Of a stretch of 34,957 nucleotides of DNA, positions 4,495-30,198 are shown piece by piece. Each line of letters starts with the position of its first letter. Position 1 is the first letter of the stretch. Origin of the DNA: Paludibacteraceae bacterium (GTDB lineage Bacteria; Bacteroidota; Bacteroidia; Bacteroidales; Paludibacteraceae); assembly GCA_017938155.1 (NCBI GenBank), contig JAGBCD010000044.1, positions 1-34,957 on the forward strand. The letters are read 5' to 3'. Position numbers and translations under genes: made by a program. The notes beneath the pieces were generated by a model. That model searched no databases and had not been told where the DNA came from. It saw only the letters and a list, made by a program, of their open reading frames with translations.

Positions 4495-7302
4495 TTATTG
4501 AATAATTCTACCAAAAATATCGTATTTTACCCCATTTCGTATGATGATGAGTTGTCCATCACGCATTATCTTGTTATTGATTTGGTCGGCATGGATATCC
4601 TCAAGTCCTGTTGTTCTGTTGCCCCAGAAATAAACGTTATCTATAAAGAATTGCTTTCCATTTCCGTTGAAGAACTTGATTTGAATGAATTTTGAGAATT
4701 CTACTGTAGGGAATGCTGTCAATGGGATATCGAATTGGTTCCATTGACCTGCTTGTAGATTCATTTTGTATAGTCCTTCTTTATTGGTAGGTGTTGCCAT
4801 AGAGATTGGTGTGATATCCAATGTTGTTTCCTCTGCACAATAAACATCAACGTGCATATAATTGGTTCGTGCAACGTTGTATGGTTTGTTATCGTTAATC
4901 TCCCAACCAAGATAGTCTGTATTGGTAAACAAGTAACATTGGTCGTTAGGCGCAAGATAACCTGTAGTAGCAACAGTGGCTTGTGCCCATCCACCAATCC
5001 AGAAATAAGTATTCGTTGGATAAGCATCCGAATAAATAGAGATAACACTATCTTGTCCGTGTATAGGAAGAGGAGCAGCATTAGGTCCTTGCAATGTAGC
5101 GACCTCTACAACTAATGGTTCGGTAACATTATTTGCCAAGTCGCTTGCGGTAATGGATAGTTGCATTTGTTGAGAAGGTTGCAATCCATCTACGCGTATC
5201 GCAGTTTGTTTGCCAGAAATAGAAGGAGCAGACAAAACAAGCGTATCAGCATTGTAGATATTAAAGAAAACGACACCTGATTCATCATTTGCAGTACAAT
5301 TGAGTGTGACAGAGAAATAATCTGCTTTATCCATTGTGGCAACAAGAGCTGTTGGTGCAATGGTATCTTCAATAGCTGTGGTGCGATAGAAATAAAGGTT
5401 ATCAATAGCAAAAGTGGTTAATTCAGGTGTGCCATCAGAGTATTTCATTTGGAAAATAGAAGTGAAATCCAAACCTTTGAAATCGGTCAATGGGATATCA
5501 AAATGGTTCCATTGTTGCGCTTTGAGTTCTACAAAAACTCCTTTGCCATCATCTGTTTGTAGTCCCGCACCACCATAGATAGGTGTAAGTTTGATCTTAC
5601 CATCGTTGGCTGCCCATATATCAATATGCATATATTCCATGTGTTGTAGGAATACAGGTTGTGCTGCCGCCCATCCTAACCAGTTGAATGAAGTATAGTA
5701 AGCATAATTGTCACCATCTATCTCTTTTGCCTCGTAGATAGTAGCATCACCCCATCCTTCTTTGTATGACCAAGAAGGTGAAACAGTATAGGCGTCTGAA
5801 TAAATAGCATGTACCAATTTTGCATCTACAGTAGGAATAGGAGCAGCTGTTTGTGGAGTAGCATAAAACTTCGTTGTAGTAGCGGTTACGTTGACCGATT
5901 GGTCAGAGATATTACCTCCACCATCCACTGCTTTGATAGCAAAATTGTAAGTGGTTTCTGGTTTAAGACCTGTAATGGTAGCAATATTGCCATCCAATGG
6001 GAAAATACCATTTATATTATTTGTTGCGTCAGCAACTTGGCACTTGGAAACCATTAGGTTATCCGTTGCATTGATACGCACTTTTACCTTATCAAATGAA
6101 GCTTCAACAAACTCAGCAGATTGGATAGTAGGTTTTTCGTTGTCAGGAACTTGAGAACCGAATACTTGCATCTCATATACCTTCATACCATATTGCGTAG
6201 ATGCTTTCGTTGAGAAGAAACGTATGTATCGAACCATTTTGGTTTTCTCTGGTTGGTCGTACCAAAAATCGGTATGTGCCCATATATTGCTGTTGCCTAC
6301 ATAATTGTAAACAGTGGTCCAAGTCTCATTGTCTTTGGAGAAATCCAAGTGATACAATTCGGAGCAAGCTCCCTCGAATTGTACAGAAACAAGGTCAATA
6401 TCGTACACATTTCCTAAGTCAAGAACAAGCCAAGCATCGTATGTTCTTTCTTCAGCAGCAGTACTGGTATTGGCATGTGCATTCCACAATGTCCCCGCAT
6501 CTCCATCAACGGCTTTTTCAGGGGCATCATTCCCTTCTTGTCCACTGGATGCATACAACTTGTTGAGCGCGAGGTTTTCTCCTTCATATCCAAATACAAC
6601 TATTTCGGGAGCGAGGACCTCTCCAACCTTAGCGACTATAGTAGCTTTGCCTTTTTGTTTTGCATAGTACTTACCATCTTTAACCTCGCCAGCTCCTTGT
6701 GGAGTAATGGTATAGGTTGGGGTTACATCCATTTGTTTTCCATTTTGGTCTGGGGATTCAATAGTCAAATCAACAAACTCTCCTACTTTGCACACATTGT
6801 TGGATGGTGTAACTTTTAGTGATTGGAGTACACTGACACCTGCCTTGAATACTTTGAATTCAAAGAACGAATATCCATATTGCGTACCGCGTTCTGTACC
6901 ATCAAACTTGATATAACGTGCTTTCGTTTCTGTAAAGTCAAACGTTTGAGTATTAGGAAAACCTGCTAATGATTGTCCTTGAATGGTAACAATTGGTGTA
7001 AAGTCTGTTCCATTATTTGAAGTAGAGATGGTAAATGTTTTTCCATAAGCACCTTCCCAAATAATCTGTATGGTATTGAACGTGCGTTCTTGTGCCATAT
7101 CCAATAGCCACCATTGTGGGTCTTCAAAAGCGGATTCCCATCGTGAGCCATTATTGCCATCTATAGCAGCTGCAGCATTTCCTGATGATGCTGTAGCAGT
7201 TGAGCCATTGGATGCCAATGCAAAATTAACATCCACTTCTTGTGCCGCAATAGGTTGCAAAATACACAAGGTAACTAAAAGAGGTAAAATGTAACGTTTC
7301 AT
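4495..7302 (-). CDS. Secreted multimodular beta-glucan-binding protein (2x F5/8C, Ig, FN3, 2x YSD module)
   Basis: 935 residues with a cleavable signal peptide (about 1-20, ending IAAQ) and no lipobox. Approximate domain order: F5/8 type C (CBM32-like) 25-156; bacterial Ig-like 157-245; second F5/8 type C 246-386; FN3-like 387-475; YSD module 487-640; FN3-like 655-740; second YSD module 745-895; C-terminal tail 900-935 containing DGQLIIIRNG. Both F5/8 domains carry the late RxTxYG...E motif also seen in the GH81 partner. There is no glycosidase signature, so this looks like a pure binding or adhesion protein. It is a clear paralogue of the 1068-residue protein two genes upstream, lacking only that protein's extra N-terminal domain. 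The gene follows the 371-residue gene after 77 nt and probably belongs to the same transcript. Substrate binding is inferred from domain type and context. Confidence 0.92.
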   Translation of the reverse strand: MKRYILPLLVTLCILQPIAAQEVDVNFALASNGSTATASSGNAAAAIDGNNGSRWESAFEDPQWWLLDMAQERTFNTIQIIWEGAYGKTFTISTSNNGTDFTPIVTIQGQSLAGFPNTQTFDFTETKARYIKFDGTERGTQYGYSFFEFKVFKAGVSVLQSLKVTPSNNVCKVGEFVDLTIESPDQNGKQMDVTPTYTITPQGAGEVKDGKYYAKQKGKATIVAKVGEVLAPEIVVFGYEGENLALNKLYASSGQEGNDAPEKAVDGDAGTLWNAHANTSTAAEERTYDAWLVLDLGNVYDIDLVSVQFEGACSELYHLDFSKDNETWTTVYNYVGNSNIWAHTDFWYDQPEKTKMVRYIRFFSTKASTQYGMKVYEMQVFGSQVPDNEKPTIQSAEFVEASFDKVKVRINATDNLMVSKCQVADATNNINGIFPLDGNIATITGLKPETTYNFAIKAVDGGGNISDQSVNVTATTTKFYATPQTAAPIPTVDAKLVHAIYSDAYTVSPSWSYKEGWGDATIYEAKEIDGDNYAYYTSFNWLGWAAAQPVFLQHMEYMHIDIWAANDGKIKLTPIYGGAGLQTDDGKGVFVELKAQQWNHFDIPLTDFKGLDFTSIFQMKYSDGTPELTTFAIDNLYFYRTTAIEDTIAPTALVATMDKADYFSVTLNCTANDESGVVFFNIYNADTLVLSAPSISGKQTAIRVDGLQPSQQMQLSITASDLANNVTEPLVVEVATLQGPNAAPLPIHGQDSVISIYSDAYPTNTYFWIGGWAQATVATTGYLAPNDQCYLFTNTDYLGWEINDNKPYNVARTNYMHVDVYCAEETTLDITPISMATPTNKEGLYKMNLQAGQWNQFDIPLTAFPTVEFSKFIQIKFFNGNGKQFFIDNVYFWGNRTTGLEDIHADQINNKIMRDGQLIIIRNGVKYDIFGRIIQ

Positions 7303-7344
7303 AAGCGATATTAGATTAAGTTATTATGCAATGAATTTTTGTGA

Positions 7345-7371
7345 GTATAGGAGGTATTCCTCCTCCCATAC
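7345..7371 (-). other. Intergenic hairpin between the 371- and 935-residue genes
   Basis: AGGAGG (7349-7354) and CCTCCT (7359-7364) form a 6-bp stem with a 4-nt loop. It is extended outward by GTAT/ATAC across a 3-nt bulge. It lies 8 nt after the upstream stop codon and 42 nt before the next start. No U-tract follows. Same position and purine-rich/pyrimidine-rich arm style as the other post-stop hairpins in this cluster. Confidence 0.45.
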
Positions 7372-7379
7372 CCTTGTGG

Positions 7380-8495
7380 TTAGAATACTTCGCGTCCCAT
7401 TAAATCAAAAGTCGCCCCATTGCGAATTATTACAACCTGACCATTTACCATTGTCTTCGTAATATTGTTTTGCTCTACAATATTTTCCAAACCGGTTTGC
7501 GTAGTGTTGGTATAAAAATACACATTGTCAATATAGCAAGTAGCAGGCATATTAGCCCATTTGAGTTGGAAAATATTGGTTAGATTGATAGCAGGAAAAT
7601 CTGTTGCGAGTACAATATTGAGTGCATTCCATCCAGCATTAAGCGTATATTTTTTCTCAGCTTCTGCTCCCCAAATAGGTGTAAAACCTATGGTTCCAGC
7701 CTCAGCAACATAAATATCCATATGAAGATTAGGATATGCAGTCATATCACCTATTGTGGTACTACCATTAAATTCCCATCCGAGGTAGTTGTTGTTGGAA
7801 TAGTAGAAAGCTTTGTCTCCCGCTGCCAATTCTACTTCTTGTTCTTTGGTTGTTTGTCCCCAACTACCTGTAACACGAGTAACGGTAGAAGTATAAGCAT
7901 CGGAATAGATGGCGAACACTTTTGAGCTATCATGTGTTGGCGCTGGAGCTGCTGCTGGATGCACTACTTCGGGAGGTGCAACGGCATCACCTACTTCTTT
8001 GATAGAGATTTCACTGATTGTCACTTGACAAGGAACAGCCCAACCAAAGTCGAAGACAAGTATTTGATTGCTACCTTCAGCGCCATTAGCAGGTTCGGAT
8101 GTGAAGACAAAATCTTGGTTTGCAGGCAAGTTGATAGATTGATTGGCATAAATCATTTCTACATTGTCATCCATCTTTGCAGTTATACCTCCAATAGCCA
8201 CTGTAGATTTGAATTTAGCAGATAAGGTGTATTGTTTGGCAGGGTTGAAAACTACATTGTGTTTGATCTTCACTTGCGCTTGCCATTGACCATAGAATTG
8301 ACTTTTGAGGTCCACAGTAATGGTTCCTGTTATGCTATCATAAGTGGCTGTACTATTGGTTTCTTGTGCCCAATTAGGTGCAAAATAGGTTCCTCCTTCA
8401 GGAATAAAAGCTTTTGCAGGATTGAACATTTCAGTAGCTGCCATAGCATTCAAAGCAATGAATGCTACAATGAAAAAAGATAAAATTTTTCTCAT
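7380..8495 (-). CDS. Secreted two-module carbohydrate-binding protein (CBM4_9-like plus YSD module)
   Basis: 371 residues; signal peptide about 1-19 (ending AMAA), no lipobox. Residues about 38-170 look like a CBM4_9-type jelly roll and closely match residues 150-290 of the giant protein (shared motif QFYGQWQAQVK). Residues about 185-335 are one YSD module: IYSDAY, NYLGWEF, then IDNVYFY. The last 27 residues are the shared tail (NGQVVIIRNG). This is the smallest and simplest member of the non-catalytic cluster and the clearest construct for testing both modules. CBM4 members often bind beta-1,3-glucan or xylan, so laminarin-type binding fits the locus, but that is inference. No catalytic motif is present. 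Gaps to its neighbours are 91 nt upstream and 77 nt downstream, each holding a hairpin. Confidence 0.9.
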   Translation of the reverse strand: MRKILSFFIVAFIALNAMAATEMFNPAKAFIPEGGTYFAPNWAQETNSTATYDSITGTITVDLKSQFYGQWQAQVKIKHNVVFNPAKQYTLSAKFKSTVAIGGITAKMDDNVEMIYANQSINLPANQDFVFTSEPANGAEGSNQILVFDFGWAVPCQVTISEISIKEVGDAVAPPEVVHPAAAPAPTHDSSKVFAIYSDAYTSTVTRVTGSWGQTTKEQEVELAAGDKAFYYSNNNYLGWEFNGSTTIGDMTAYPNLHMDIYVAEAGTIGFTPIWGAEAEKKYTLNAGWNALNIVLATDFPAINLTNIFQLKWANMPATCYIDNVYFYTNTTQTGLENIVEQNNITKTMVNGQVVIIRNGATFDLMGREVF

Positions 8496-8548
8496 AAATA
8501 GTAGAATTTAAAGGATTAGTATAATTTATTGTGTAAAAGCGTTAGTAA

Positions 8549-8575
8549 GTTAGGGAAGGAATCACCTTCCCTAAC
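8549..8575 (-). other. Intergenic hairpin between the 1068- and 371-residue genes
   Basis: A perfect 11-bp inverted repeat (arms 8549-8559 and 8565-8575) with a 5-nt loop, TGATT on the transcribed strand. It starts 11 nt after the upstream stop and is 53 nt from the next start. It is the strongest stem of the set. There is no poly-U run directly after it, so termination is unlikely to be efficient. Confidence 0.6.
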
Positions 8576-8586
8576 CTAATATTATA

Positions 8587-11500
8587 TCAACGAATAACAC
8601 GTCCCATTACATCATATGTAACACCATTGCGAATGATGTACAATACACCATCGCGAATGATTTTTTGTGATGTAGTTTGGATTTGTGTGTCTTCAAGTGA
8701 TGTAGAAGTTGCTTTGTATAGATATACGTTGTCAACAAAGAATGAACCCAATGCGTAATAGTTGATCATCTTCACTTGGAAAATCTGGGTCAAATCTTTT
8801 CCAGTAAGATCAATAGTGATTGTGTTCCATTGATTTGCAGTAACAGCAACGCCTGTTTTAGCATAATCAGCACCACCTTGTCCAAGAGGTCCAAAGTCGA
8901 TTGTGCCATTAGCAGTTGGGTAAATATCCATCGTGAAGGTAGTGTAGCCAGTAGCATCAAATGCGTTGAATTCCCATCCTACCATACCATCGGTAAAGCC
9001 ATAGTAGAATAATGCATTGTCACCTTCTGCAAGTGTAGCCTCTACCATTTGTGGTGCGTTCCACCAAGGTTGGTTGAATGATTGAACATTCGTCCAAGCA
9101 GGAGTATAAGCATCGGAGTAAATAGATTTCACATTGCTTGCTTCATGTGTTGGGGTTGGAGCTGATGTTGCGTTAGGCAATGCCAATGTGGTAGCTGTCA
9201 CCATTACAGCCGCAGCCTTATTCTCATTGAGGTCATAAGCAACTACAGATAGATTGTATGCTTTACCTGGAGTCAAATTGCCAACAATAACGTCCACTTC
9301 TTTTCCTGATTCAGCACCGCTGGTTGCCAATTTGGTCTCACCATCAAATACATCATAAGATACAGAACCAGAGTTGTCGTTCGCTTTGCAAGTAATAACA
9401 ACAGAAGTGTAAGAAGCTGATTTCAAGGTAGCAGAAATATCGGTTGGTATTTCTGTATCTTCCAATTCGGTGACACGATAGAAATAAACGTTGTCAATAG
9501 CAAAGGTAGTACCACCTTGAGGCACATCAAATTTGAATTGGAAAATAGATGAGAGATTTAGTCCTGCAAAATCTGTAGCTAAGTCCAAATCAATAGCATT
9601 CCATTGTTGCCCTTGTAGTTCTACCACTTTACCTTTTGAGTCATCAGTAGTAAGACCTGCACCACCATAGATAGGCACAAGTTTCAATGAACCTGTATTT
9701 TCTGCCCAGATGTCAATGTGGAGTTTCTCCATATTAAGTGCATTGATAGGAGCAGAAGTAAATTGCCAACCAAGATAGTTGAGGTTGGTATAGTAGCGAA
9801 CGTGGTTGCCATCCAATGTTAGTTCTTCAAATTGAGTAGCGTCACCCCAGCCTTCATGAGCGGTGAAATTGTGAGTAGTAGCATAACTATCTGAATACAA
9901 AGAGATAACTTTCTTCTCTTCTACTTCAGGAGCGGCAGGTGCTGTGGTAGGCTTAACATCATGTTTAGCTGTAGTTACAGCCACTGTAACTGAATTGTCG
10001 GATTCGTTACCAGCCAAGTCCTTGGCAGAGATAGTAAATGTATATTGAGTAGAAGGAGTCAAATCGGTTACTGTGATTTTTCCATCTGTAGGAGAGAATG
10101 TTTTGTTGTATTCTGGGGTAGTTGATACCACATGATAACTTCCTACTTCTTCATTATCTGTAGCAGTAACAGAGATGATTGCAGAATTATGTGTATTGGA
10201 AACAAGAGTCGCTGTACCCATTACTGGTTTTACGTTGTCAGCTGGAGCCACCCAAGGAGTACCAAACACTTTGAATTCGTACATTTTCATACCCCATGTT
10301 GTAGCGGCCTTGGTGCTGAAGAAACGAGCATAGCGCACTTTGGTTTTGTTTTGAAGGTCGTTGCCATAGATTAATTTGGTATGGCCGTTAACTCCTGCAT
10401 TGCCTACATGGTTATATGCCTCAGCCCAAGTAGCATTGTCTGCAGAGAAATCTACGTGATAGTCTTGTGAGCATGCGCCTTCAAACTTGATAGATACAAG
10501 GTTGATGTCGTAATATGCCCCAAAGTCCACGATAAACCAAGAATCGTATGTTCGAGATGCTTCATCTTCAGCTGTACCATTGGTAGCAGAACCTTGCCAT
10601 ACAGAACCTTCGTTGCCATCGATTGCGTGCCAAGCATCAGTACCGCTTGGAGCGAAATCTGATTGAGCAACAATCTTGCTCTGGTTGATATTTGTACTCA
10701 AAGCAACGTTGTCACCATCGTAAGCGAAGACTTCAACTGCAGGAGCTTTAACCTCACCAATAGCAGCAACGATAGATGCCAAACCAATCTTAGCAGGAGT
10801 ATAAACACCATTGGTAATAGTACCTGCATCAGCAGGAGTGATTGTATAGGTTACTTCACCTGCATTTGCCATCACTTTACCATTTTGGTCTTTAGCAGTT
10901 ACGTTAATAGCAAGACCTTCGCCTACTTTGGCCAGTGTGTTGGCGGGTTTTGCCTCAAGAGAAGTAAGTGTACTCACACCTGCGAGATATACACGGAACT
11001 CCCAGAATGAGTAGCCATAACCCGTACCACGAGCTGTACCATGGAATTGGATATAACGAGCAGTTGTTTTTTCTATTACATTGCTTTGTGTATAAGGGAA
11101 ACCTGCTAATGATTGTCCTTCTACCGTCCAAACTGGAGTCCATGTAGCATTATCTGAGCTTACAGACACAGTAAAGGTCTTAGCATAAGCACCTTCCCAT
11201 ACGATTTCAAGTGTATTGAAAATACGTTCTTGACCCAAATCCAATGTCCATGTTTGAGGGTCTTCTGATGCAGACTCCCAACGAGTACCTGCGTTATTGT
11301 CAATAGCAGCAGTAGCATTACCAGATGTTGCCTCTGCAGAAGAACCATTGGAAGTGAGAGCAAAGTTTACATCGTATTCTTCTGCAGGTGTACCAGGAGT
11401 ACCTCCACCTGTCGTTCCATCAGCATAGTAAACCCAGAAAGTGCATGAACCCGTAGCATAGGTAATCGTTACTTGAGTTTCTTGAGCTGTAAAAGAAGAG

Positions 11501-11793
11501 AGGTAAAGAACTACGCCTGCACCATCAATCTTTCCGTTCACAGAGCAATCTGAGATACCTGCAGGAACATGCACATAGATACCTACTTCATCTGCAAACC
11601 CTGGCTTTTGGATATTAACTATAGATAATCCATCTGCTGGAGACACTTTGTATTTTTCAGTGTTCACTGCATCACCTGACCCATTACCAAGCCAAGCGAT
11701 TGTGCTCCAATCTACGCCTGAAGCAGCAGACATAGTCAGTGCGCTAAATAGCATTGCTACGAGCGCAAAAGTTTTTAAAAAATTACGTTTCAT
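8587..11793 (-). CDS. Secreted multimodular beta-glucan-binding protein, paralogue of the 935-residue protein
   Basis: 1068 residues; signal peptide about 1-24 (ending MSAA), no lipobox. Residues about 24-122 form an extra N-terminal domain shared with the upstream 470-residue protein (DGAGVVLYLSSFTA, CTFWVYYADGT). Then follow F5/8 type C 139-268, Ig-like 269-357, F5/8 type C 361-511, FN3-like 520-610, YSD module 621-771, FN3-like 780-865, second YSD module 881-1027, and the C-terminal tail (GVLYIIRNGVTYDVMG). From the first F5/8 domain onward the architecture is identical to the 935-residue protein, so the two probably arose by duplication. No glycosidase domain is recognisable. Expected location is the cell surface or outside the cell. 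Likely role: holding beta-glucan for the GH16, GH81 and GH30 enzymes of the locus (inference). Confidence 0.92.
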   Translation of the reverse strand: MKRNFLKTFALVAMLFSALTMSAASGVDWSTIAWLGNGSGDAVNTEKYKVSPADGLSIVNIQKPGFADEVGIYVHVPAGISDCSVNGKIDGAGVVLYLSSFTAQETQVTITYATGSCTFWVYYADGTTGGGTPGTPAEEYDVNFALTSNGSSAEATSGNATAAIDNNAGTRWESASEDPQTWTLDLGQERIFNTLEIVWEGAYAKTFTVSVSSDNATWTPVWTVEGQSLAGFPYTQSNVIEKTTARYIQFHGTARGTGYGYSFWEFRVYLAGVSTLTSLEAKPANTLAKVGEGLAINVTAKDQNGKVMANAGEVTYTITPADAGTITNGVYTPAKIGLASIVAAIGEVKAPAVEVFAYDGDNVALSTNINQSKIVAQSDFAPSGTDAWHAIDGNEGSVWQGSATNGTAEDEASRTYDSWFIVDFGAYYDINLVSIKFEGACSQDYHVDFSADNATWAEAYNHVGNAGVNGHTKLIYGNDLQNKTKVRYARFFSTKAATTWGMKMYEFKVFGTPWVAPADNVKPVMGTATLVSNTHNSAIISVTATDNEEVGSYHVVSTTPEYNKTFSPTDGKITVTDLTPSTQYTFTISAKDLAGNESDNSVTVAVTTAKHDVKPTTAPAAPEVEEKKVISLYSDSYATTHNFTAHEGWGDATQFEELTLDGNHVRYYTNLNYLGWQFTSAPINALNMEKLHIDIWAENTGSLKLVPIYGGAGLTTDDSKGKVVELQGQQWNAIDLDLATDFAGLNLSSIFQFKFDVPQGGTTFAIDNVYFYRVTELEDTEIPTDISATLKSASYTSVVITCKANDNSGSVSYDVFDGETKLATSGAESGKEVDVIVGNLTPGKAYNLSVVAYDLNENKAAAVMVTATTLALPNATSAPTPTHEASNVKSIYSDAYTPAWTNVQSFNQPWWNAPQMVEATLAEGDNALFYYGFTDGMVGWEFNAFDATGYTTFTMDIYPTANGTIDFGPLGQGGADYAKTGVAVTANQWNTITIDLTGKDLTQIFQVKMINYYALGSFFVDNVYLYKATSTSLEDTQIQTTSQKIIRDGVLYIIRNGVTYDVMGRVIR

Positions 11794-11831: not shown

Positions 11832-13244
11832 TTAGTGAATTATTTGCACACCCATGGCGTTATAGTACACGCCATTGTTTATAATAATGAGTTGTCCATC
11901 CTTAATTACCTTCATTATTTTTTGCTGAGTCTGAGGCAACTCTATTGCTGTTTGCTCGCATGAGGAACCAACAACATAAGTAATTCGTTCTGTGAATAGC
12001 ACTTTACCTGCTTCCAAAGCTACTTTGACTAAGAAAGTCAGTTCTTCTCCGTTGCTTAATCCTGTTAGGGTATGTGTTGCTATGCGTTTGGTAGCATCCC
12101 AACCTGACATTTGTATATCACCACCCATCAATATGCCTTCGCTATCAAAGCGGAAGAGATAAGGTGAAGCCATTCCTGGAAGGTTATCAAGAAATTGAAT
12201 CGTGATGTTAACACCCTTGGAGGTCGTCTCCGTCTTCCATGTAAATCCTTGTGTTAGTGAGGTAATAGCATGGTCTGGATCTGCTTCTGTATAATAAGTA
12301 TCTACTCCTTTGGATGTTCCTGCACATGAACCCGTTTGAAGATCCTCTGGTGTATCAGGTGTATCGGGAGTATCAGGAGTGTCTGGTGTATCGGGGGTGT
12401 CAGGAGTGTCTGGTGTATCAGGAGTATCGGGTTCGCACGAAGAACCTACAACATAAGTGATACGTTCTGTAAATAGCACTTTGCCTGCTTCCAAAGCTAC
12501 TTTCACTAAGAAGGTCAGTTCTTCTCCGTTGCTTAATCCTGTTAGGGTATGTGTAGCTATGCGTTGGGTAGCATCCCAACCAGACATTTGTATATCGCCA
12601 CCCATCAATAGACCTTCGCTGTCAAAGCGGAAGAGATAAGGCGATGCCATTCCTGGTAGGTTGTCTAAGAATTGAACAGTGATGTTAACACCTTTGGCTG
12701 TCGTCTCAGCCTTCCATGTAAATCCTTGCGTTAGTGAGGTAATAGCATGGTTTGGATCTGCTTCTGTATAATAAGTATCTACTCCTTTGGCTGTTCCTGA
12801 GCATGAACCCGTTTGAAGATCCCCTGGGGTATCGGGAGTATCGGGAGTGGTATTATCTGTTCCATCTACAAAATATACCCAGAAAGTACATGTTTGCGCA
12901 CCCGCGTTGTATTTCAAAGTGACTTGTGTTTCCTTGGCAGTAAATGATGAAAGGTAAAGGACAACACCTGCACCATCTATTTTAGATTTTACGTTACACT
13001 CGGTAATAGCTGCAGGGACATGAACATAGATGCCTTCTTCAGCTGCCCATCCCGGTTTTTGAATATTAACGACAGCCAATCCTTCAACAGCTTGCACTTT
13101 GTATTTATTAGCATACTTACCATTCCCTGCCCCATCTCCAAGGAACTCGTAAGCACTCCAATCAATACCTGATGCAGCCAAAAGGCTAATTGAATAGAAA
13201 AGCATTGCTAACAATGCGCATGACTTGAGTAAATGTTTCTTCAT
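11832..13244 (-). CDS. Secreted protein with duplicated YxVGS module and PDT-repeat linker
   Basis: 470 residues; signal peptide about 1-23, no lipobox. Residues about 24-126 match the N-terminal domain of the 1068-residue protein. A short TPDTPDTPG linker leads into a roughly 130-residue module (LQTGSC to VVGSSCE), then about nine Pro-Asp-Thr repeats, then a second, nearly identical copy of the module. The tail contains DGQLIIINNGVYYNAMG. Each module starts and ends with a conserved Cys (TGSC, GSSCE) that could form a disulfide. The module resembles two segments of the giant protein that end in YIVGS and YTVGS. I do not recognise a family; a carbohydrate-binding role is a guess from context. 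The near-identity of the two copies implies a recent internal duplication. It follows GH3 after 25 nt. Confidence 0.88.
   Translation of the reverse strand: MKKHLLKSCALLAMLFYSISLLAASGIDWSAYEFLGDGAGNGKYANKYKVQAVEGLAVVNIQKPGWAAEEGIYVHVPAAITECNVKSKIDGAGVVLYLSSFTAKETQVTLKYNAGAQTCTFWVYFVDGTDNTTPDTPDTPGDLQTGSCSGTAKGVDTYYTEADPNHAITSLTQGFTWKAETTAKGVNITVQFLDNLPGMASPYLFRFDSEGLLMGGDIQMSGWDATQRIATHTLTGLSNGEELTFLVKVALEAGKVLFTERITYVVGSSCEPDTPDTPDTPDTPDTPDTPDTPDTPDTPEDLQTGSCAGTSKGVDTYYTEADPDHAITSLTQGFTWKTETTSKGVNITIQFLDNLPGMASPYLFRFDSEGILMGGDIQMSGWDATKRIATHTLTGLSNGEELTFLVKVALEAGKVLFTERITYVVGSSCEQTAIELPQTQQKIMKVIKDGQLIIINNGVYYNAMGVQIIH
11952..12818 (-). repeat. Direct repeat of about 390 bp, two copies, encoding the duplicated module
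   Basis: Bases 11952-12341 and 12429-12818 align at a constant offset of 477 bp with only scattered mismatches. An example is the run from the Leu-Gln codons (12336 / 12813) to the Ser-Ser-Cys codons (11956 / 12433). The copies are separated by the Pro-Asp-Thr minisatellite. High DNA identity across the full module points to a recent duplication or ongoing gene conversion. Such a repeat could also collapse or expand by recombination, or be misassembled. Confidence 0.9.
12348..12431 (-). repeat. 9-bp minisatellite encoding a (Pro-Asp-Thr)n linker
   Basis: About nine tandem 9-bp units of the form (a/t/g)gg-(t/a/g)gt-(a/g)tc on the plus strand encode Pro-Asp-Thr repeats between the two module copies. 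Third-position variation shows the array is not brand new, but unit number could still vary by slippage. Pro/Thr-rich repeats of this type are typical flexible spacers between binding modules in secreted bacterial proteins. A shorter version lies upstream near 12826-12848. Confidence 0.9.
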
Positions 13245-13269: not shown

Positions 13270-15552
13270 CTATTTCAACATAAATTTAGCAGGGTTTCCA
13301 GTTGCAGCATCTGGTGCTATCCATACATGAAAATCTCCAGGTTCTGCATCGCAGACATAGGCACCATCAGCACCTAATGTGACTCCATCAGCCAAGTGCC
13401 AGTATTCTAAATCTTTTTCTGTCAATTCAAAGCTAACTGTACGTGCTTCACCAGCAGGAATAGTGATACGTTGGAAGCCTTTGAGTTCACGTACTGGTCT
13501 TGCAAGTGAACCCACCAAATCTCTAATATAAAGTTGAGGAACTGCAACCGCAGTCACATTACCAGTATTTTTAATAACGCACGAGGCTTGCAATTTTGAA
13601 TTATTCTCTGCTAAAAGGATAGTGTCCGATAGGACAACGGGACCATACTCAAAGGTAGTATAGGTGAGACCATATCCAAAAGGATAAAGAGGTTTGTCGC
13701 CATATTCAAGCCAATAACTGGATTCACCTATGGAGAATTGTCCTGCACCTACAGGGATATCATCTATCAATACAGGGTGATCGGTAGGACGACCTGTGTT
13801 CTTCTTGTTGTAATACAATGGTATTTGCCCTTCAGTATTAGGGAAAGTGATTGGCAGACGTCCTGAAGGTGCTACCTTACCCATAATGAGATTAGCCAAA
13901 GCAGGTCCTTGCATCGTTCCGCCATGGAAAGCATAGAGCACAGCATCAACGATGTCAATATCCTCACCTATACACAATGGGCGACCTGCCATGACTGTAA
14001 GTACCACAGGTTTGCCCGTGGCCTTGAGCGCACGGAGTTGAGCGGATTGGTCACCAGGCAGATTGAGGTGCGCACGGCAGCGTGCTTCCCCAGACAAGAT
14101 ACTCTCCTCGCCACCGAAATACAATACCACATCGGCTTGGCGAGCCAAATGAGTGAGAGAAGCAATATTCGCATCACTAACCTCACGTGACCAATGCCTG
14201 CCCGTTTGCTCGATGAGGCGAATCTCGCCCTGCTCTGCCAACTGGCGGAAGGCCATCAATGGTGTAATAGTCATTGAATCCACTTTATCAAAGCACCAAG
14301 TACCATTCTGGTCGTGTTGAGCGTGAGCGAGAGGACCACAGACCATTATACTCAATTTTGAATTTTGAGTTTTGCATTTTGAATTCTTTAGAGGCAAGGT
14401 ATTGTTGTTCTTCAACAACACAGCAGATTCTTCGGCGGCGCGTTGAGCAGCAGCTAATGCTTCGGGAGCAAAATAGGTAGGTTGCTCCACTGTAGTATAA
14501 GGATGCTCGAATAAACCCAATCGGAATTTCATGCGCAAGATATTACGTACACAAGCGTCGAGTTGCTTCTCGCTAACTACTCCCTGCGCAACAAGATCGT
14601 CCAGATACCACAGATAAGCATTGCTTTGCATATCCATATCTACCTGCGCATCAAGGCTCTGAGCAGCCGTCTCACAAAGATTGGTAGCAATACCATGAGG
14701 TACCAAGTTACCTATTGATCCCCAATCGGATACAAGCAAACCATCAAATTGCCACTCGTTACGAAGAATATCTACATTAAGATGTTTATTGCATGAAGCG
14801 GGTACACCATTGATGTCATTGAAGGCACACATAATAGATAGCGAACCTGCATCAATAGCTGCTTTGAATGGTGGCAGATAGGTTTCACGGAGTTGGACCT
14901 CTGGAATCCATGTCGAATTGTAGTCGCGTCCGCCCTCAGATACACTATACCCTGCAAAGTGTTTGACACAAGCTGCGAGACGTACAATAGAGTCGTTGCT
15001 TTGATAACCACGCACCGCAGCAGCTCCCATAACTGAGGTAAGGTAAGTATCTTCACCATATCCTTCTGCTACACGTCCCCAACGTGGGTCACGTGCCACG
15101 TCCACCATAGGAGAGAATGTCCAACGGACACCCGTTTGTACTGCTTCATCTGCAGTCAAGCGTGCTGCTTCTTCTACGAGAGCGACATCAAACGTAGCAG
15201 CCTGACCTAACGGAATAGGGTAAATGGTACGGAAACCATGAATAACATCACGTCCCACAAGTAGCGGAATACCCAAACGTGTTTCCTCAACCGCCATACG
15301 TTGAAGGCGATTGACCTCATTGGGATCAACGATATTGAAAATGGAACCCACTAAACCTTCACGAATTTGTGCTTCCTTCTCCTCTGCACTCCAAGAAGGG
15401 TCAAGCTGATTCATCTGCCCTATCTTCTCCTCAAGAGTCATCTGTGAAAGGAGATAGTCTATCTTTTTCTCAATAGGGTCTTGAGGAGTACAAGATAGCA
15501 AACCTAAGAAGGTAAGAATGCATATGGACAATATGGATAAAAAACGTTTCAT
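13270..15552 (-). CDS. GH3 beta-glucosidase lipoprotein
   Basis: 760 residues. The lipobox LLSC at Cys21 marks a lipoprotein, probably periplasmic or outer-membrane. GH3 signatures: GRDVIHG (residues 100-106), KHFAGY (197-202), and LLVSDWG with the nucleophile Asp276. The C-terminal alpha/beta sandwich contains GGEESILSGEAR near residue 480, the usual region of the acid/base Glu. A fibronectin-like C-terminal domain ends at about 755. This is the BglX-type layout at typical length. Expected activity: release of glucose from beta-1,3- or beta-1,6-gluco-oligosaccharides produced by the upstream endo-enzymes. A short low-complexity insert (near residues 391-402, KNSKCKTQNSK) between the two catalytic domains is encoded by a heptamer repeat. 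It starts 49 nt after GH81. Family assignment is firm; linkage preference is inferred. Confidence 0.95.
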   Translation of the reverse strand: MKRFLSILSICILTFLGLLSCTPQDPIEKKIDYLLSQMTLEEKIGQMNQLDPSWSAEEKEAQIREGLVGSIFNIVDPNEVNRLQRMAVEETRLGIPLLVGRDVIHGFRTIYPIPLGQAATFDVALVEEAARLTADEAVQTGVRWTFSPMVDVARDPRWGRVAEGYGEDTYLTSVMGAAAVRGYQSNDSIVRLAACVKHFAGYSVSEGGRDYNSTWIPEVQLRETYLPPFKAAIDAGSLSIMCAFNDINGVPASCNKHLNVDILRNEWQFDGLLVSDWGSIGNLVPHGIATNLCETAAQSLDAQVDMDMQSNAYLWYLDDLVAQGVVSEKQLDACVRNILRMKFRLGLFEHPYTTVEQPTYFAPEALAAAQRAAEESAVLLKNNNTLPLKNSKCKTQNSKLSIMVCGPLAHAQHDQNGTWCFDKVDSMTITPLMAFRQLAEQGEIRLIEQTGRHWSREVSDANIASLTHLARQADVVLYFGGEESILSGEARCRAHLNLPGDQSAQLRALKATGKPVVLTVMAGRPLCIGEDIDIVDAVLYAFHGGTMQGPALANLIMGKVAPSGRLPITFPNTEGQIPLYYNKKNTGRPTDHPVLIDDIPVGAGQFSIGESSYWLEYGDKPLYPFGYGLTYTTFEYGPVVLSDTILLAENNSKLQASCVIKNTGNVTAVAVPQLYIRDLVGSLARPVRELKGFQRITIPAGEARTVSFELTEKDLEYWHLADGVTLGADGAYVCDAEPGDFHVWIAPDAATGNPAKFMLK
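14355..14382 (-). repeat. Heptamer repeat inside the GH3 gene
   Basis: Four consecutive 7-mers, ATTTTGA, ATTTTGA, GTTTTGC and ATTTTGA (plus strand), lie in frame inside the GH3 gene. They encode the Asn-Ser-Lys/Gln-rich insert between the (beta/alpha)8 and sandwich domains. Short TTTTGAA-type tandem repeats are known as scattered repetitive elements in some bacteria (cyanobacterial STRRs, from memory). Here the reading frame is kept. Confidence 0.75.
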
Positions 15553-15601: not shown

Positions 15602-18600
15602 TTATTTGTTATCATTTACTTTTCTCCCCTGCGCGTTATAGATTCCAGAGGGGTGAATGATATAGAGTTGATGATTGATTATTACCTTACGAGTAGTTGT
15701 TGGATTTGTATAGGTCGTTTCAATATCAGTCGTTTGTGCATCGCATGGTCCATCCCCATAGACTTCTATTTCCCATAAAGAGGAACCATACCCCGTATTA
15801 CGTTTGAGGCATACTATGCGTACATAGCGTGCAGGTATGCTTTGTTGGTTGGAACGCAAATCAATGCTTTGTACCCCACCCTTGGCATTGGTAATGGTTT
15901 GAATGGTGTTGTAGTGGATGCCATCGTCGCTGACTTGTATTTGGTATTCGGTAGCATAGGCTGCTTCCCAACGTAGTGTGAGTGTATGAATACGATAACA
16001 GTTACCCAAATCAACAGCGATCCATTCGTTATCCTGGAATCTGCTAGACCATCTGGTGTCCAGTTTCCCATCAACAGCAGCTGCAGGTTTGGTAGCATCA
16101 GATTCGGAACCAGAAGCCTCAACTTTCTTCCCTAAAGCAAGGTTATAATCGGTATAAGCGATGACGTGTACTATGGCTGTAGCATCCATTCCAAGTCCTT
16201 GGAAAAGGATGGTGGTATCTCCTTCTTGTGTAGCAATAAAAGGAACAGATATGGATTCGGTGGAAGCACCAAATTGATTGACTATACTATACTCAAAGAC
16301 TACACTTTCTCCTATAGGTAACGTAACTTCTTGAGGGGTAACAATGGCTTGGGTAGCTTGTTCTGTTTCTAAAACAACGATGGTAGTAGAAGCGCTCACC
16401 GTACCTATAGTAGCAGTCACTTCTATGGTTCCATATTGGTTTGCTGTAAGTATATTTCCTTGTATGGTTGCTTCTACTCCTGCAGTAGTTAAAGTATAAG
16501 CGTTGGTAATATCTATTTCGTTTCCTTGTGCATCATAACCCTTGACGGTGATAGTAGTACTTTGCGATTGCAAAAGTACATTGTCTTGAGCTTGTATATC
16601 CATTGCAAACAAGGTTCCTTCAGTGCTTTGCATAGGTCTTCCATAGGCTTCTAACTCATAGAGAGATGTTCCATAGGTAGTCGCTCGCTCTACTCCTACA
16701 ATACGTATATATCGCCCTCTTGCTCGCATGCCGTTCTGAGCAAAAGCTTGAGCAAGTGCAACGTGTTGTATGCCACCACTGGAGGTAAGAGTAACAGTCT
16801 GCCATGTTTGTTTGTCGGTAGATAAACTAATAGTAAATTGAGTAGCATAAGCGGTTTCCCAACGCAACACAAGATGATCTATGTAACAATCCTCTTGGAG
16901 ATCAACAATGGCATACTCATTGTCATTATGTTTTGATCCCCATCGTGTGGAATAGTCACCATCCGTGAGCGAAATAGGTTGTGTACCTGCATTTTCATAT
17001 GAAGAGGTCTCAACCGGTTTATGTAGTGCCAAATTAGGGTATGGTAGTTCCCATGCCATAGAGTCTTTGGCAAAGACTTGCTCTTGTTCTATAGGCGCCG
17101 TATATATAATGGGTGCATTTCCATTGTCTGAAACAAGGGTTAGTGCATTAGCAACGGCAATGAGAGAAGTATCTTTTTGCCCAAAGAAACGAACAGTAAC
17201 GGGTGCAGAAGTGGCATTATACATAGCATACGTAGTGATGTTAGTAAGGGTATCAGTATAAGCACAAGCAAGTGGATGTGAACTATGTATATCAAAACGT
17301 TTCTCGCCCAAAGAGCGATGTGAATGCGTTAACCAATAGGTGATTCCTCCTGTATCAGGATTTTTGGCAAGTGCTTTACCCATTTGGTCCATTCTATCCC
17401 ATACACGTGCGGCTGAATCGGCATCAAAGAGTGATAGGTACGATAGGCAGACATTACCCAATCCTGATTCATCCCCCAATCCTCCTGAAGCGGCTTCATA
17501 ATTACCCACTTCTTTCTTGGCATACATTTGTGCATAGTCCCACTGAGCAAAAGGAAGGTTGTATGAGAAATAATTGGTCAATACTGGCGATATAGGGAGC
17601 CATTGTATAGAATGCATCCATACAGGATCACCAGAGAACCAAGTCCACCATCCGACCCCTTGCATGGTGAGGTTGCAGCAATAAGGGTGTTGATACTTGG
17701 TATAGTCAATGTTACGTCTTTTGCGGTCGAACCAATACTCTTCCGTTGCTTTGGCTTCGAGGGTATAACCATATATACCTGCATCCATCATCTCTTCATC
17801 TTCTAATGCCGCTCCTAACATATAGATACCTCCCCACCCTTGCATAGCTTCACTGGAAGACTCTTGTCCGTTACCATTACCTGCGTTGCCCATTCCTCCT
17901 GCGAATGAATGTCCACAATAAGGATTGAACGTACGGAAACGTGGATAACGAGATTCATCTCTAAGCCATGACGCATAATCTAATGCTACCTCACGTATGA
18001 TAGGTCCATAGTGGTTTTTGAAATCGGCATCTAACATACACAAAACGGCTGATGCATAGATGAAATACCCATAGTGAAAATGGTGGTCATTGAAGGTATC
18101 CGAATCGTAAGATGGGTCAAAACCTACCATTGCTCCCCATTTAGGGTAACGAGCGAAATACATATTTTGTTCTCCAGGTGTATAGGTGTACCAATTGATA
18201 AGTACTTCTTTGAGTCGCTTACGTGCTTGATGGAATAAGGTCTCGTCGCCCATCTGTAATGCAAAGGTCATGTAGTGCATCATTTGCGTTAGTCCTTTAC
18301 CACCCCAATAAGTGTCTGCACCAAAGGAGCCCTTCTGTACATAATCGGTGACGAGTTGTGACATTCGTTGAGACGAATATCCATCTTTCCATTCTCTTGG
18401 TGCGGGGAAGAAAGGTAACATGCCTGCTGTAGGATAACGGAACGCGAAATGGTTACCTTTCATGAGGCGCATCTTGCCTCGAGGTGAAAGATAAGACACT
18501 TGTAAGTATTGATTGTTTGTAGAAGTTATGTTAGTTTGGGTACTCGGGCTAAGTGGTTCCTCACTATAGTAATGGTGTGGTAAAAACGCCATCAGACAAG

Positions 18601-19417
18601 AATCTGTCGTAACAGGTTTGGATGTCAATGCTTCTTGTGTATAAACACGGAAGTAAGTATCTAACGTAGCCTGTGACTTATTGACTTGATAATCGGCTAT
18701 TGTACGTCTTGGTATGCGCCATGCATAAGGTTGGATGTCATTCACAGTAAGTCCTTGAGTTAGCCATGCGACAACGGTTATACTGCGTTGATTATCTATT
18801 TTGCTCAAGACAGCAAATAAGGATTGATTTGGATTGGAGGCAGTAACGGTTATACCATCTGCTTCTATCCAAACAAGCGGTGATCCTTGCATGCATGTAA
18901 CGCGTACCCATTGTTCGCCATCTTGCATGATGAAAGAAAGCATAAAGTCTGACCAATTATCCACCAATGCTTCTTGGAAGTTCGCTTTGCTTCCTGTAAT
19001 ATTGTTTGTAAAGCTAAACGTGAGCGGTGTATCCCATTTTACTTCACATCCAGTAGGTTCCCAATAGGTTGGGTAGCCCATTTGCAGTCCATTCTCATTG
19101 GCTTCTACCCATCCTGGATAGCACCAAAGTTTACCTGTCCATGTATTGACAAGTGCATAAGTCCACCAGTCGTTGGATGGTAGTGTAATGGTGCCCGCTT
19201 TCGTTCCATTCGGTTGGCCAAGTCGTTGAAGTAGCGAGTCTGGTAAGTAGATTCGTCTATGCTCCATTTGATATGCTTGGCATCCTCCATGCAACGAAGA
19301 TTGGCTTTCGGACAATGGAACATACGATGCATACGAACCCTCTCCCATTGGAACGGGTTGTTGTCCAAAGACCAACTGTACAAAGAGCAGAAGTATGAGA
19401 ATAACTTTTGGTTTCAT
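15602..19417 (-). CDS. GH81 endo-beta-1,3-glucanase with F5/8C and Ig-like domains
   Basis: 1271 residues; signal peptide about 1-18 (ending FGQ), no lipobox. Residues about 20-780 are a GH81 catalytic module. FNDHHFHYGYF carries Asp444 (general acid), and GQESSSEAM carries Glu519 and Glu523. The spacing (75 and 79 residues) closely matches the catalytic Asp and two Glu I recall for the Bacillus halodurans GH81 enzyme. A C-terminal extension follows: F5/8 type C 794-930, two Ig-like segments 940-1090, second F5/8 type C 1091-1225, and the shared tail 1238-1271 (HQLYIIHPSGIYNAQGRKV). Expected reaction: inverting endo-hydrolysis of long or insoluble beta-1,3-glucan such as curdlan, yeast or fungal wall glucan or laminarin. 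The start overlaps the GH30 stop by one base, implying translational coupling. Confidence 0.95.
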   Translation of the reverse strand: MKPKVILILLLFVQLVFGQQPVPMGEGSYASYVPLSESQSSLHGGCQAYQMEHRRIYLPDSLLQRLGQPNGTKAGTITLPSNDWWTYALVNTWTGKLWCYPGWVEANENGLQMGYPTYWEPTGCEVKWDTPLTFSFTNNITGSKANFQEALVDNWSDFMLSFIMQDGEQWVRVTCMQGSPLVWIEADGITVTASNPNQSLFAVLSKIDNQRSITVVAWLTQGLTVNDIQPYAWRIPRRTIADYQVNKSQATLDTYFRVYTQEALTSKPVTTDSCLMAFLPHHYYSEEPLSPSTQTNITSTNNQYLQVSYLSPRGKMRLMKGNHFAFRYPTAGMLPFFPAPREWKDGYSSQRMSQLVTDYVQKGSFGADTYWGGKGLTQMMHYMTFALQMGDETLFHQARKRLKEVLINWYTYTPGEQNMYFARYPKWGAMVGFDPSYDSDTFNDHHFHYGYFIYASAVLCMLDADFKNHYGPIIREVALDYASWLRDESRYPRFRTFNPYCGHSFAGGMGNAGNGNGQESSSEAMQGWGGIYMLGAALEDEEMMDAGIYGYTLEAKATEEYWFDRKRRNIDYTKYQHPYCCNLTMQGVGWWTWFSGDPVWMHSIQWLPISPVLTNYFSYNLPFAQWDYAQMYAKKEVGNYEAASGGLGDESGLGNVCLSYLSLFDADSAARVWDRMDQMGKALAKNPDTGGITYWLTHSHRSLGEKRFDIHSSHPLACAYTDTLTNITTYAMYNATSAPVTVRFFGQKDTSLIAVANALTLVSDNGNAPIIYTAPIEQEQVFAKDSMAWELPYPNLALHKPVETSSYENAGTQPISLTDGDYSTRWGSKHNDNEYAIVDLQEDCYIDHLVLRWETAYATQFTISLSTDKQTWQTVTLTSSGGIQHVALAQAFAQNGMRARGRYIRIVGVERATTYGTSLYELEAYGRPMQSTEGTLFAMDIQAQDNVLLQSQSTTITVKGYDAQGNEIDITNAYTLTTAGVEATIQGNILTANQYGTIEVTATIGTVSASTTIVVLETEQATQAIVTPQEVTLPIGESVVFEYSIVNQFGASTESISVPFIATQEGDTTILFQGLGMDATAIVHVIAYTDYNLALGKKVEASGSESDATKPAAAVDGKLDTRWSSRFQDNEWIAVDLGNCYRIHTLTLRWEAAYATEYQIQVSDDGIHYNTIQTITNAKGGVQSIDLRSNQQSIPARYVRIVCLKRNTGYGSSLWEIEVYGDGPCDAQTTDIETTYTNPTTTRKVIINHQLYIIHPSGIYNAQGRKVNDNK

Positions 19418-25885: not shown

Positions 25886-25910
25886 AATTCTTCTGTTTTG
25901 TTCGCTTGCT

Positions 25911-25935
25911 CACGTTGATTACTATGGCTAACGTG
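25911..25935 (-). other. Short inverted repeat between GH16 and transporter genes
   Basis: CACGTT (25911-25916) and AACGTG (25930-25935) could form a 6-bp stem with a 13-nt loop, in the 68-nt gap after the GH16 stop codon. It is weak by itself; I list it because larger gaps elsewhere in the locus also hold an inverted repeat. Confidence 0.3.
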
Positions 25936-25953
25936 TAAAGTGGCTTTGCGTTA

Positions 25954-26925: not shown

Positions 26926-26932
26926 ATGTTTT

Positions 26933-28207: not shown

Positions 28208-28208
28208 A

Positions 28209-29165
28209 TTATTTCTTGTAGCAGAAAATAGCGCAAATCTCAAATTCACGATTGGCTCCTTCTACAACTAAAGCGGGTGTATAAACGACATTGGTCAGAT
28301 TGCCTTGTATAGGGGTGCTCCAATCCAATCCATCGGCAAACAAATCTGCCATAGACCATTCTGCTACATCCCATTCGCCACGACTTTGTGATATCATGCC
28401 TCGATCCACATTGTGCTCTCCACCTGAGGTGCTATATAATTTGACCGTTACACTTGTCCCCGCTAACATTCGGGGGGTACGGTAAATAATAACAAAATTG
28501 AAATCGCTGGTCACACTCGTAAAATCACACATTCCCCATTGACGTATACCTCCGCACATATTATTCCACGCCATAGAACCGGATTTCCAGAACATCCATT
28601 CCACTCCTGTATCACCAAAAGCAGTGGAACCTTTGCACTTGCCAAAATTGGCGTCCGTAACGTCGCTATTCCAAATATCCATAGTAGCCGTTACTCCTTC
28701 GGCAGGTTGACCAGGAGAAGCATATTCGCCGTTTACGCGATAATCGTGCACTGTACCTTTGATGCGTTTCATCGCTTCATCATCCATCAGGAAGACATAG
28801 TATTCGGAACCCTCAAGATATTGGCTATACGATATGGTAGAACCTGTTTGTCCACCATCGCCTACTGTTACGACACATGAGGCTAATTGATTGCCTGCGG
28901 TAGCGACGATCACTGCAGTCCCATTACTAACGCCTGTCACTTGACCATTGACAACTACCGCCACCATCGGGTTGGAACTATTCCATGTGACAGCGGCGTC
29001 TTGCGGGTTAGTAGTAGCCACCAATGTCTCGGTTTGTCCTACTGTCAATTGCAAAGAAGCCTTGCTTAGACTAATGGATTCAACCTGTTGTGTTGGCACA
29101 TTTTGGTTGCATGAAATGCAAACAAATAATATTGCCAATAGTGGAATAAAAAAGTTATGCTTCAT
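28209..29165 (-). CDS. Putative surface glycan-binding lipoprotein with BIG2 domain
   Basis: 318 residues; lipobox CISC (Cys19). Residues about 27-102 are a BIG2-type Ig domain (SLQLTVGQTETLVAT, VTWNSSNP). The C-terminal 200 residues have no glycosidase signature. They contain several Trp-rich stretches (VEWMFWKSGSMAWNN, RQWGMCDF) and end CAIFCYKK. The gene sits between two GH16 genes with 1-nt gaps on each side, so it is firmly in the enzyme operon. The layout (lipoprotein anchor, Ig spacer, distal binding domain) resembles SGBP-B-type proteins of beta-glucan PULs. I cannot assign the C-terminal domain to a family; glucan binding is inferred from context. Confidence 0.8.
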   Translation of the reverse strand: MKHNFFIPLLAILFVCISCNQNVPTQQVESISLSKASLQLTVGQTETLVATTNPQDAAVTWNSSNPMVAVVVNGQVTGVSNGTAVIVATAGNQLASCVVTVGDGGQTGSTISYSQYLEGSEYYVFLMDDEAMKRIKGTVHDYRVNGEYASPGQPAEGVTATMDIWNSDVTDANFGKCKGSTAFGDTGVEWMFWKSGSMAWNNMCGGIRQWGMCDFTSVTSDFNFVIIYRTPRMLAGTSVTVKLYSTSGGEHNVDRGMISQSRGEWDVAEWSMADLFADGLDWSTPIQGNLTNVVYTPALVVEGANREFEICAIFCYKK

Positions 29166-29166
29166 A

Positions 29167-30198
29167 TTACATCGTTATTTTTTGCCCTATAATATTATAC
29201 AAATCACCATCCTTCATCATATAAATCTGTCCATCTATTACTACTTTTTGGACAGTTTTGCTGGTAGAAACATGTTCTAAGGCTGTATTTGTTTCTGGTT
29301 CTATAGGGTCGGAAGGTGAAGGAGAAACAAAAGTTTCTTTGTCGTTACCTTGTTGGTAGATACGTATCCAATCTATATATACGGAACGTGGTCCATTGGC
29401 AAGGGCAGTAATCTTGTTGATATCCCAAATCTGTGGAAAATTGCCACCCACTGCAAGGTTTGCGATGATAAAGTTTGGCTTAGCAAAGACGACACTTCTA
29501 TCATAGTTCTTGTCATCATTCGGTTCAAGTTTGGCATGGAAATAAGGTTCCACTCCAGGATTGGCATCCATGTCCATATACATATCAATGGAAGTAGGGG
29601 TCCATATCATTGTTACGATATGGAAGGTATCTTCTACTGAATATGAATACGTAATATCTTGTGCGTCGCACCATACAGTGTTCCAAGCCGAACCGAGATG
29701 AAGGGCACCATTAAAAAAGCGGTCCTGCGTACCTTTTTTGATACCATTAGCATTACCCAATTCAATGATATCAGTCTCTCCACAGCGTGGCCAACCTACC
29801 TTGTCATAATCATTTCCCATCTGCCAAAATGCTGGCCAAAGACCATTCGCGGTATTAGGAAACTTGATACGTGCTTCTATCTTACCGAAAGTGTAATAGA
29901 GTTTATTTTTGGTATTGACACGTCCTGAAGTACATTTTTTGCCTTTGTAATCCTCTTTGGTAGCAGTCAGAATAAGGCATTTCTTACCTGTAGTAGGTTC
30001 GGTACCGAGCGTAACACCTTTCTCACAATAGTATTGCAATTCGCTGTTGCCACCGCCATCACCATTGACTTCTATATTCCAAACATTGAGATCAAGTGAC
30101 GCATCGGTGAAGTCTTCGTTCCAAACGAGGGTGTAATCTTGCGCAAAGGCCAATGTTGCCAAGAACAAGCATTGAGTTATGACTAAATATTTTTTCAT
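29167..30198 (-). CDS. Secreted GH16 endo-beta-1,3-glucanase with C-terminal sorting-like tail
   Basis: 343 residues; signal peptide about 1-20 (ending LAFAQ), no lipobox. A GH16 domain, about 22-285, carries GETDIIE: Glu141, Asp143, Glu146. A short linker of Pro/Ser/Glu precedes the C-terminal tail (about 305-343; DGQIYMMKDGDLYNIIG), the same tail type as in GH81 and the non-catalytic proteins. It is the only one of the four GH16 enzymes that has this tail and the only one without a lipobox, so it is probably released or attached by another route. Catalysis should be retaining endo-hydrolysis of beta-1,3-glucan. One nt before the next gene, 26 nt after GH128. Confidence 0.94.
   Translation of the reverse strand: MKKYLVITQCLFLATLAFAQDYTLVWNEDFTDASLDLNVWNIEVNGDGGGNSELQYYCEKGVTLGTEPTTGKKCLILTATKEDYKGKKCTSGRVNTKNKLYYTFGKIEARIKFPNTANGLWPAFWQMGNDYDKVGWPRCGETDIIELGNANGIKKGTQDRFFNGALHLGSAWNTVWCDAQDITYSYSVEDTFHIVTMIWTPTSIDMYMDMDANPGVEPYFHAKLEPNDDKNYDRSVVFAKPNFIIANLAVGGNFPQIWDINKITALANGPRSVYIDWIRIYQQGNDKETFVSPSPSDPIEPETNTALEHVSTSKTVQKVVIDGQIYMMKDGDLYNIIGQKITM

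Follow-up and report, generated by a model that had tools for sequence, protein, structure and literature searches.

Six secreted, mostly sugar-acting proteins, all encoded on the minus strand of one bacterial contig, end in a common tail of about 40 residues which, as judged from sequence, is very probably a minimal, lineage-expanded sorting signal of the type IX secretion system (T9SS). The contig, C41, was analysed whole (34,957 bases, hereafter the window) and belongs to a 1.96-Mb genome (45 contigs, 93% complete) that is probably of a rumen-type Paludibacteraceae. The tail was found at the extreme C-terminus of proteins with a Sec signal peptide and not on lipoproteins (assigned by crude rules and by eye, with the single exception described below), and homologous proteins carry either the tail or the established type A C-terminal domain (CTD). 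It looks like a reduced, uncatalogued form of this tag, with which Bacteroidota send proteins to the cell surface, and standard models miss it. The original prediction, made from the letters of the window, had read the tail as a sorting or anchoring signal; the avoidance of lipoproteins, the resemblance of its end to the type A motif B, the presence of T9SS genes and the occurrence of both tags on homologous cargo support that reading.

Tails in the window and in the source genome

The six tails lie at positions 4498..4611 (TGLEDIHADQINNKIMRDGQLIIIRNGVKYDIFGRIIQ, on a 935-residue protein; coding sequence (CDS) 4495-7302), 7383..7496 (371 residues; CDS 7380-8495), 8590..8703 (1068 residues; CDS 8587-11793), 11835..11951 (470 residues; CDS 11832-13244), 15605..15730 (the GH81 protein; CDS 15602-19417) and 29170..29286 (the signal-peptide GH16; CDS 29167-30198). 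Between 37 and 41 residues follow the presumed cut, and four columns, one each of T, E, K and G, are invariant in the alignment of the six. All six proteins have a signal peptide without a lipobox (by eye and by a crude rule). These are the genes to which the original prediction had assigned the tail, at the same places, and the eight lipoproteins that it had named as lacking the tail do lack it, with a lipobox read by eye in all eight. The resulting split of six of six against none of eight holds, because the profile of the six tails matches nowhere else in the window at E ≤ 1.

In the source genome the six-tail profile gave 38 places at E ≤ 1, of which 30 also pass E < 1e-3, and all 38 end at most 9 residues from a stop codon; with a profile of these 38 tails, the tail of the 1068-residue protein had the top score. 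The set extends far beyond chance, since the same profile gave 32 further places outside the window, all of them near stop codons. Two of the 32 proteins are N-terminally cut by contig ends, and the other 30 show no convincing lipoprotein signal by eye. Lipobox-like motifs were flagged in the tail proteins at C31:37636 and C21:87492, where the hydrophobic stretch continues beyond the cysteine, and at C23:6524, where the start codon is unclear; by eye the three were called plain or undecided. Two very large tail proteins (C37:20882-26411, L056; C19:55370-62453, L057) are alike in having an unusually long signal-peptide stretch ahead of the hydrophobic part (L-Q-G-Y-T-R/K-G-I-R).

The window also holds a giant protein (1..4428, minus strand; 1476 residues visible) that is cut by the contig end and has its C-terminus outside the window. 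Contig C15 starts with one of the two cut proteins, an orphan tail of 48 residues (C15:1-145, tail C15:23-145; L051), whose orientation is the one that the lost C-terminus of the giant protein should have. The residues ahead of this tail are similar to those of two further tail proteins, which have an ICLPF-type domain close to the C-terminus. A homology search did not locate the end of the giant protein; the orphan tail may be that end, which is a suggestion and not a proof.

Association with plain signal peptides

Lipoproteins were called by a crude rule and not by SignalP, and some frames were mislabelled, among them MFS transporters and two of the window lipoproteins: the rule recognised six of the eight in the window, calling GH30 (...LLVSC) plain and the GTG-start GH16 (...VLMAC) none. 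Across the window and the loci of 25 GH81 relatives (223 frames, a tally that includes the GH81s by which the loci were found), none of the 67 lipoproteins had a short tail or type A CTD, against 39 of the 89 plain-signal proteins (38 with the short tail, one with the long CTD) and three of the 67 others, with a Fisher p of 3e-12 for lipoproteins against plain-signal proteins. The N-terminus was visible in 159 of the 182 short-tail frames fetched, and these were called plain (149), none (8) or lipoprotein (2). One of the two lipoprotein flags (L301) was judged false, the cysteine lying after a plausible plain cleavage site. The other, a 145-residue frame in G214 locus L125 with a good lipobox and a tail shortened by a stop, is the sole credible candidate for a tail-bearing lipoprotein. 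Tails are therefore not equally common on lipoproteins, at none of 67 by the crude rule and one credible case among 159 visible N-termini. The statement of the original prediction that every visible plain-signal-peptide protein has the tail holds for the window only; in the 25 GH81 loci, SusC-type receptors and some other plain-signal proteins are tail-less.

Short tail or type A CTD on homologous cargo

From all fetched loci, 182 frames ending in a short tail and 78 ending in a type A CTD were chosen by E < 1e-3 and terminal position, and the two sets do not overlap. Pairs were then retained if the body alignment reached the tail and covered at least 3/4 of the short-tail protein. This filter left 37 pairs (18 short-tail and 16 long-CTD proteins, 26-57% identity). 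GH16 accounts for 11 of the 18 short-tail proteins, including that of the window, the other ten being N-terminally cut by a locus edge; the seven short-tail proteins outside GH16 represent about six families. The GH16 of the window is 57% identical to a protein of genome G390 that carries a type A CTD, and its homologues in G390 and G382 have an extra N-terminal part and a canonical type A CTD at the end. The strictest set, restricted to uncut proteins with a coverage of 75% or more in both partners, comprised 14 pairs (6 short-tail and 13 long-CTD proteins, 26-57% identity). The ends of nine pairs were aligned, seven of them from the filtered set, and a T-x-(I/L/V)-(E/D) junction is common to three (pairs 1, 3 and 9), for example NTGLEEIV against KTDIEDIV.

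The abundances of the two tags are inversely related across 21 genomes of the genus, in which 1251 short tails and 346 TIGR04183 places were counted at E ≤ 1e-3 (rho -0.60, p 0.004, phylogeny uncorrected). As a separate observation, a group of adjacent genes for secreted proteins has homologues in two genomes of the genus, ending in type A CTDs in G382 (C16:119823-128017) and in short tails in the source genome (C25:235-8958).

Sequence relation to the type A CTD

Profile comparison by hhalign placed the tail core on the 78 long CTDs in linear order (E 3e-5, probability 73%, score 20.0). Column shuffling of this comparison reached 20.0 in 0 of 200 trials, with a highest score of 18.4, and the whole tail gave E 6.6e-5 and 64%. 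The similarity centres on the second half of the core, which aligned with motif B of the long CTDs at E 2.2e-7 and a probability of 93.6%. The tail stops where the type A domain continues to motifs C, D and E. The original prediction had described the tail as shorter than, and distinct from, the type A CTD, with a YNxxG(R/Q) part recalling the middle of that domain; both points hold, the second through the match to motif B, which lies in the middle of the domain.

The type A CTD (TIGR04183, PF18962) is likewise C-terminal, on signal-peptide proteins, found in T9SS genomes and provided with motif B, and T-x-(L/I/V)-(E/D) occurs in part of both kinds. It measures roughly 60-95 residues, whereas the tail has about 40 and lacks motifs D and E and the near-invariant lysine at the end. 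In F. johnsoniae a near-invariant lysine near the CTD end contacts PorV (PMC10994853, consulted in part); the tail core ends in G-x-x-V-K (columns 38-42), where the chain ends, and its invariant lysine is column 18, ahead of the other strands. The simplest reading of its sequence is a type A CTD that ends after motif B, without D and E.

T9SS genes and distribution of the tail

The source genome encodes SprA/Sov (2670 bits), PorV (445 bits) adjoining PorU (1041 bits) on contig C25, and PorQ (294 bits). Type A CTDs were found at 9 places by PF18962 and at 15 by TIGR04183 (E ≤ 1e-3; PorU is among them), none of which coincides with a short tail, and there is one type B CTD (a single TIGR04131 place), which is not a short tail either. 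A profile of 17 source-genome type A places matched solved CTDs of gingipain R2 (5hfs, E 3.8e-5; 5ag8, E 2.3e-4) and the CTD chains of 8glj and 8glk (E about 2e-5); for HBP35 (5y1a), PorU (6za2) and RemA (8gl6) it gave only E 0.03-0.2.

Using the 38-tail query, 10 of 295 genomes in a sample of the order matched at E ≤ 1e-3, of which nine are credible; the tenth (G249) was dropped as spurious, being a 33-residue frame in a genome with no PorU match. PorU was looked up across the order sample, and SprA and PorV in the source genome alone. Among the genomes so examined, no credible tail appeared in one without T9SS-like machinery: all nine credible genomes of the order have PorU, and the source genome has SprA, PorV, PorQ and PorU. 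Matches were present in 48 of 150 genomes of the family sample. In the genus every one of the 21 genomes matched, with between 9 and 98 tails per genome of about 2 to 2.8 Mb. In the phylum sample, 1 of 392 genomes matched at E ≤ 1e-4, namely the source genome; distant forms of the tail may be missed, because the queries come from this genus. Among the 25 GH81 relatives, 24 carry the tail at E < 0.05 and the 25th is cut by a contig end. Their loci come from Paludibacteraceae or uncultured Bacteroidales, several from goat, cattle, deer and buffalo and some from the forestomach.

Consensus, possible fold and linker

A consensus was derived from 181 distinct tails. It starts with T-(G/A/D/S)-(I/V/L)-(E/D)-x-(V/I), continues with a variable linker, and ends in the core K-(V/I/F)-(I/L)-x-(N/D)-G-x-(L/I/V)-(Y/L/F)-I-x-(R/K/H)-(D/N)-G-x-x-(Y/F)-(N/D/T)-x-x-G-x-x-V-(K). 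The most conserved columns are K18 and G38 (0.99), I27 (0.97), and G23 and Y34 (0.87, the remainder of column 34 being F). Of 179 short tails, 89 contain the motif T-x-(LIVM)-(ED), and of 71 long CTDs, 15 do; the corresponding counts among 2100 length-matched body windows are 31 and 86. Mean-field coupling analysis of the 181 tails (effective number 137) is too shallow to serve as proof of a fold, and its top pair consists of two near-invariant columns. Five of the 20 top pairs (18-27 and 19-26; 25-36, 27-34 and 28-33) fall on the two antiparallel registers that turns at NG and DG would produce, so that the covariation weakly fits a three-strand meander and is only suggestive. A search of the PDB with the tail profile returned two chance matches only (E 7.7 and 7.8), both to a lectin repeat.

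Many linkers between the T-x-(L/I/V)-(E/D) site and the core are encoded by 7-bp tandem repeats (47 of 176 linkers; the figures are 14 of 880 for body windows and 5 of 176 for cores); examples are L155 11512-11546 (CAAATTT x5), L163, L156 and L162. Such repeats could explain the variable length of the linker and could aid the spread of the tail by recombination.

Three other tandem arrays were noted in the window. At 14354-14385 an in-frame 7-bp array of 4.6 copies, within the gene of the GH3 lipoprotein, reads NSKCKTQNSKLS inside the enzyme; at 12349-12432 a 9-bp array encodes a PDT repeat linker that joins two near-identical domains of the 470-residue protein; and at 32930-32977 an 11-bp array (TATACCCTTAC, 4.3 copies) lies between a GH16 lipoprotein gene (31540-32829) and the next gene (33026).

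Weighing of the evidence and alternative readings

Several observations weigh against the tail being a T9SS signal related to the type A CTD. In Pfam and NCBIfam no CTD model, TIGR04183 and PF18962 included, recognises any of 62 tails. Similarity outside motif B is weak, and smaller sequence sets gave probabilities of 31% and 42%. The tail is without the C-terminal 22-residue stretch in which the signal of P. gingivalis has been placed (PMC4804311, consulted in part), a stretch made up of the final two strands, which bear motifs D and E (PMC11969387, consulted in part). Of the nine pairs with aligned ends, pairs 8 and 9 come from outside the filter; the junction is one residue off in pair 4, and is not shared or is poorly aligned in five, including that of the window GH16 (pair 6). 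The inverse abundance falls to rho -0.46 (p 0.047, phylogeny uncorrected) when the long-rich genomes G382 and G390 are left out. Co-occurrence with PorU in the order sample is weak support and says little, because 273 of the 295 genomes have a PorU match (264 above the cut-off).

The most substantial competitor, which we consider possible though doubtful, is that the tail is a re-ordered CTD, with a strand like motif D placed ahead of motif B, and not a CTD truncated after motif B. Re-ordering comes into question because the first half of the core, taken alone, aligns with the motif D region (E 0.017), which also counts against truncation, and a doubled core profile (a test of circular permutation) scored 19.9 against the native 20.0, so the profile cannot separate the two and permutation is neither needed nor excluded. 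Against it stand the native linear alignment, which spans both halves without permutation, and the junction of pair 9, which is linear when aligned partly by eye (ENGVIYIE..KNGKTYNVLGTEI vs VENTLYIN..RTTRIFSLTGEIL). It is unlikely that the tail is the short CTD already described from P. intermedia, as far as the published description of that domain goes (PMC11969387, consulted in part). The P. intermedia domains, of which 48 are published, measure 40-55 residues, have the cleavage consensus PT/GI (compare T-G-(I/V/L) here) and three predicted strands, and coexist with long CTDs, P. intermedia being, according to that paper, the only species reported with both; a similar length class (counted here from the presumed cut), a similar cleavage motif and the accompanying long CTDs would favour identity. 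Past the cleavage site, however, they are described as carrying motif B, then after 1-6 residues motif D (GxY), then motif E with an invariant basic residue, whereas in the present tail GxxYI comes first and the motif B-like Y-x-x-x-G last. The tail would thus have been reduced differently, since the P. intermedia domains keep B, D and E. Judged by titles and abstract openings, no description of this tail was found in the open-licence literature, PMC11969387 coming nearest.

We regard it as improbable that the tail is a T9SS signal of a third class beside A and B, read without PorV by a PorP/SprF-like or other shuttle (or PorQ). The absence of motifs D and E and the invisibility of the tail to type A models would agree with such a route, as would the precedent of type B CTDs (TIGR04131), which are T9SS signals as proposed for the tail and use shuttles of their own (PMC12618676, consulted in part); 0 of 62 tails match the TIGR04131 model. 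That homologous cargo bears one tag or the other, and that both have motif B, argues for the same shuttle, and the spread of tails over many contigs also speaks against another one. An anchoring or retention module unrelated to T9SS, binding for instance surface glycan or the outer membrane, would accord with the lack of a CTD model match and with the several carriers that are polysaccharide-acting enzymes. This reading is very improbable in view of the terminal position, the exclusion from lipoproteins, the homologues that end in a type A CTD instead and the match to motif B.

Proposed mechanism

For the preferred reading, a T9SS sorting signal related to the type A CTD, we infer recognition by PorV and SprA, export, cleavage by PorU, anchoring and the fold, drawing on the pathway as it is known and on the finding that homologous cargo bears either tag. 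The Sec signal peptide would take the protein across the inner membrane, and in the periplasm the core of about 25 residues, of the pattern K-hydrophobic-hydrophobic-x-(N/D)-G-x-L-Y-I-x-R-(D/N)-G-x-x-Y-(N/D/T)-x-x-G-(Q/R)-x-V, would fold into a small three-strand sheet ending in the motif-B-like strand. The SprA/PorV translocon would recognise this core, by its motif-B end, instead of a full type A CTD. Outside the cell, PorU would probably cut at T|(G/A/S/D)(L/I/V)(E/D), with the tail released and the enzyme joined to surface glycan. Chances are about even that the tail is a new class of T9SS signal expanded in one genus (probably of the Paludibacteraceae), which would have retained the sortase site along with the first strands as far as motif B, shed motifs D and E, and displaced the type A CTD on homologous cargo, with a linker often made of 7-bp repeats.

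Implications

A study of a rumen Bacteroidales drew its list of T9SS cargo from TIGR04183 alone (PMC5831590, consulted in part). In the 21 genomes of the genus such lists would hold 346 places, against 1251 found by the tail profile, the lack of overlap between the two having been checked in the source genome. Two surface routes, the lipoprotein route and probably T9SS, stand side by side in one gene cluster and within one enzyme family (GH16). A natural signal of about 40 residues, with natural swaps, is also a direct test ground for what PorV and SprA read in a CTD. If the tail is indeed such a new class, the minimal T9SS signal would not be the last 22 residues: an adapted PorV/SprA pocket would read a motif-B strand within a sheet of three strands.

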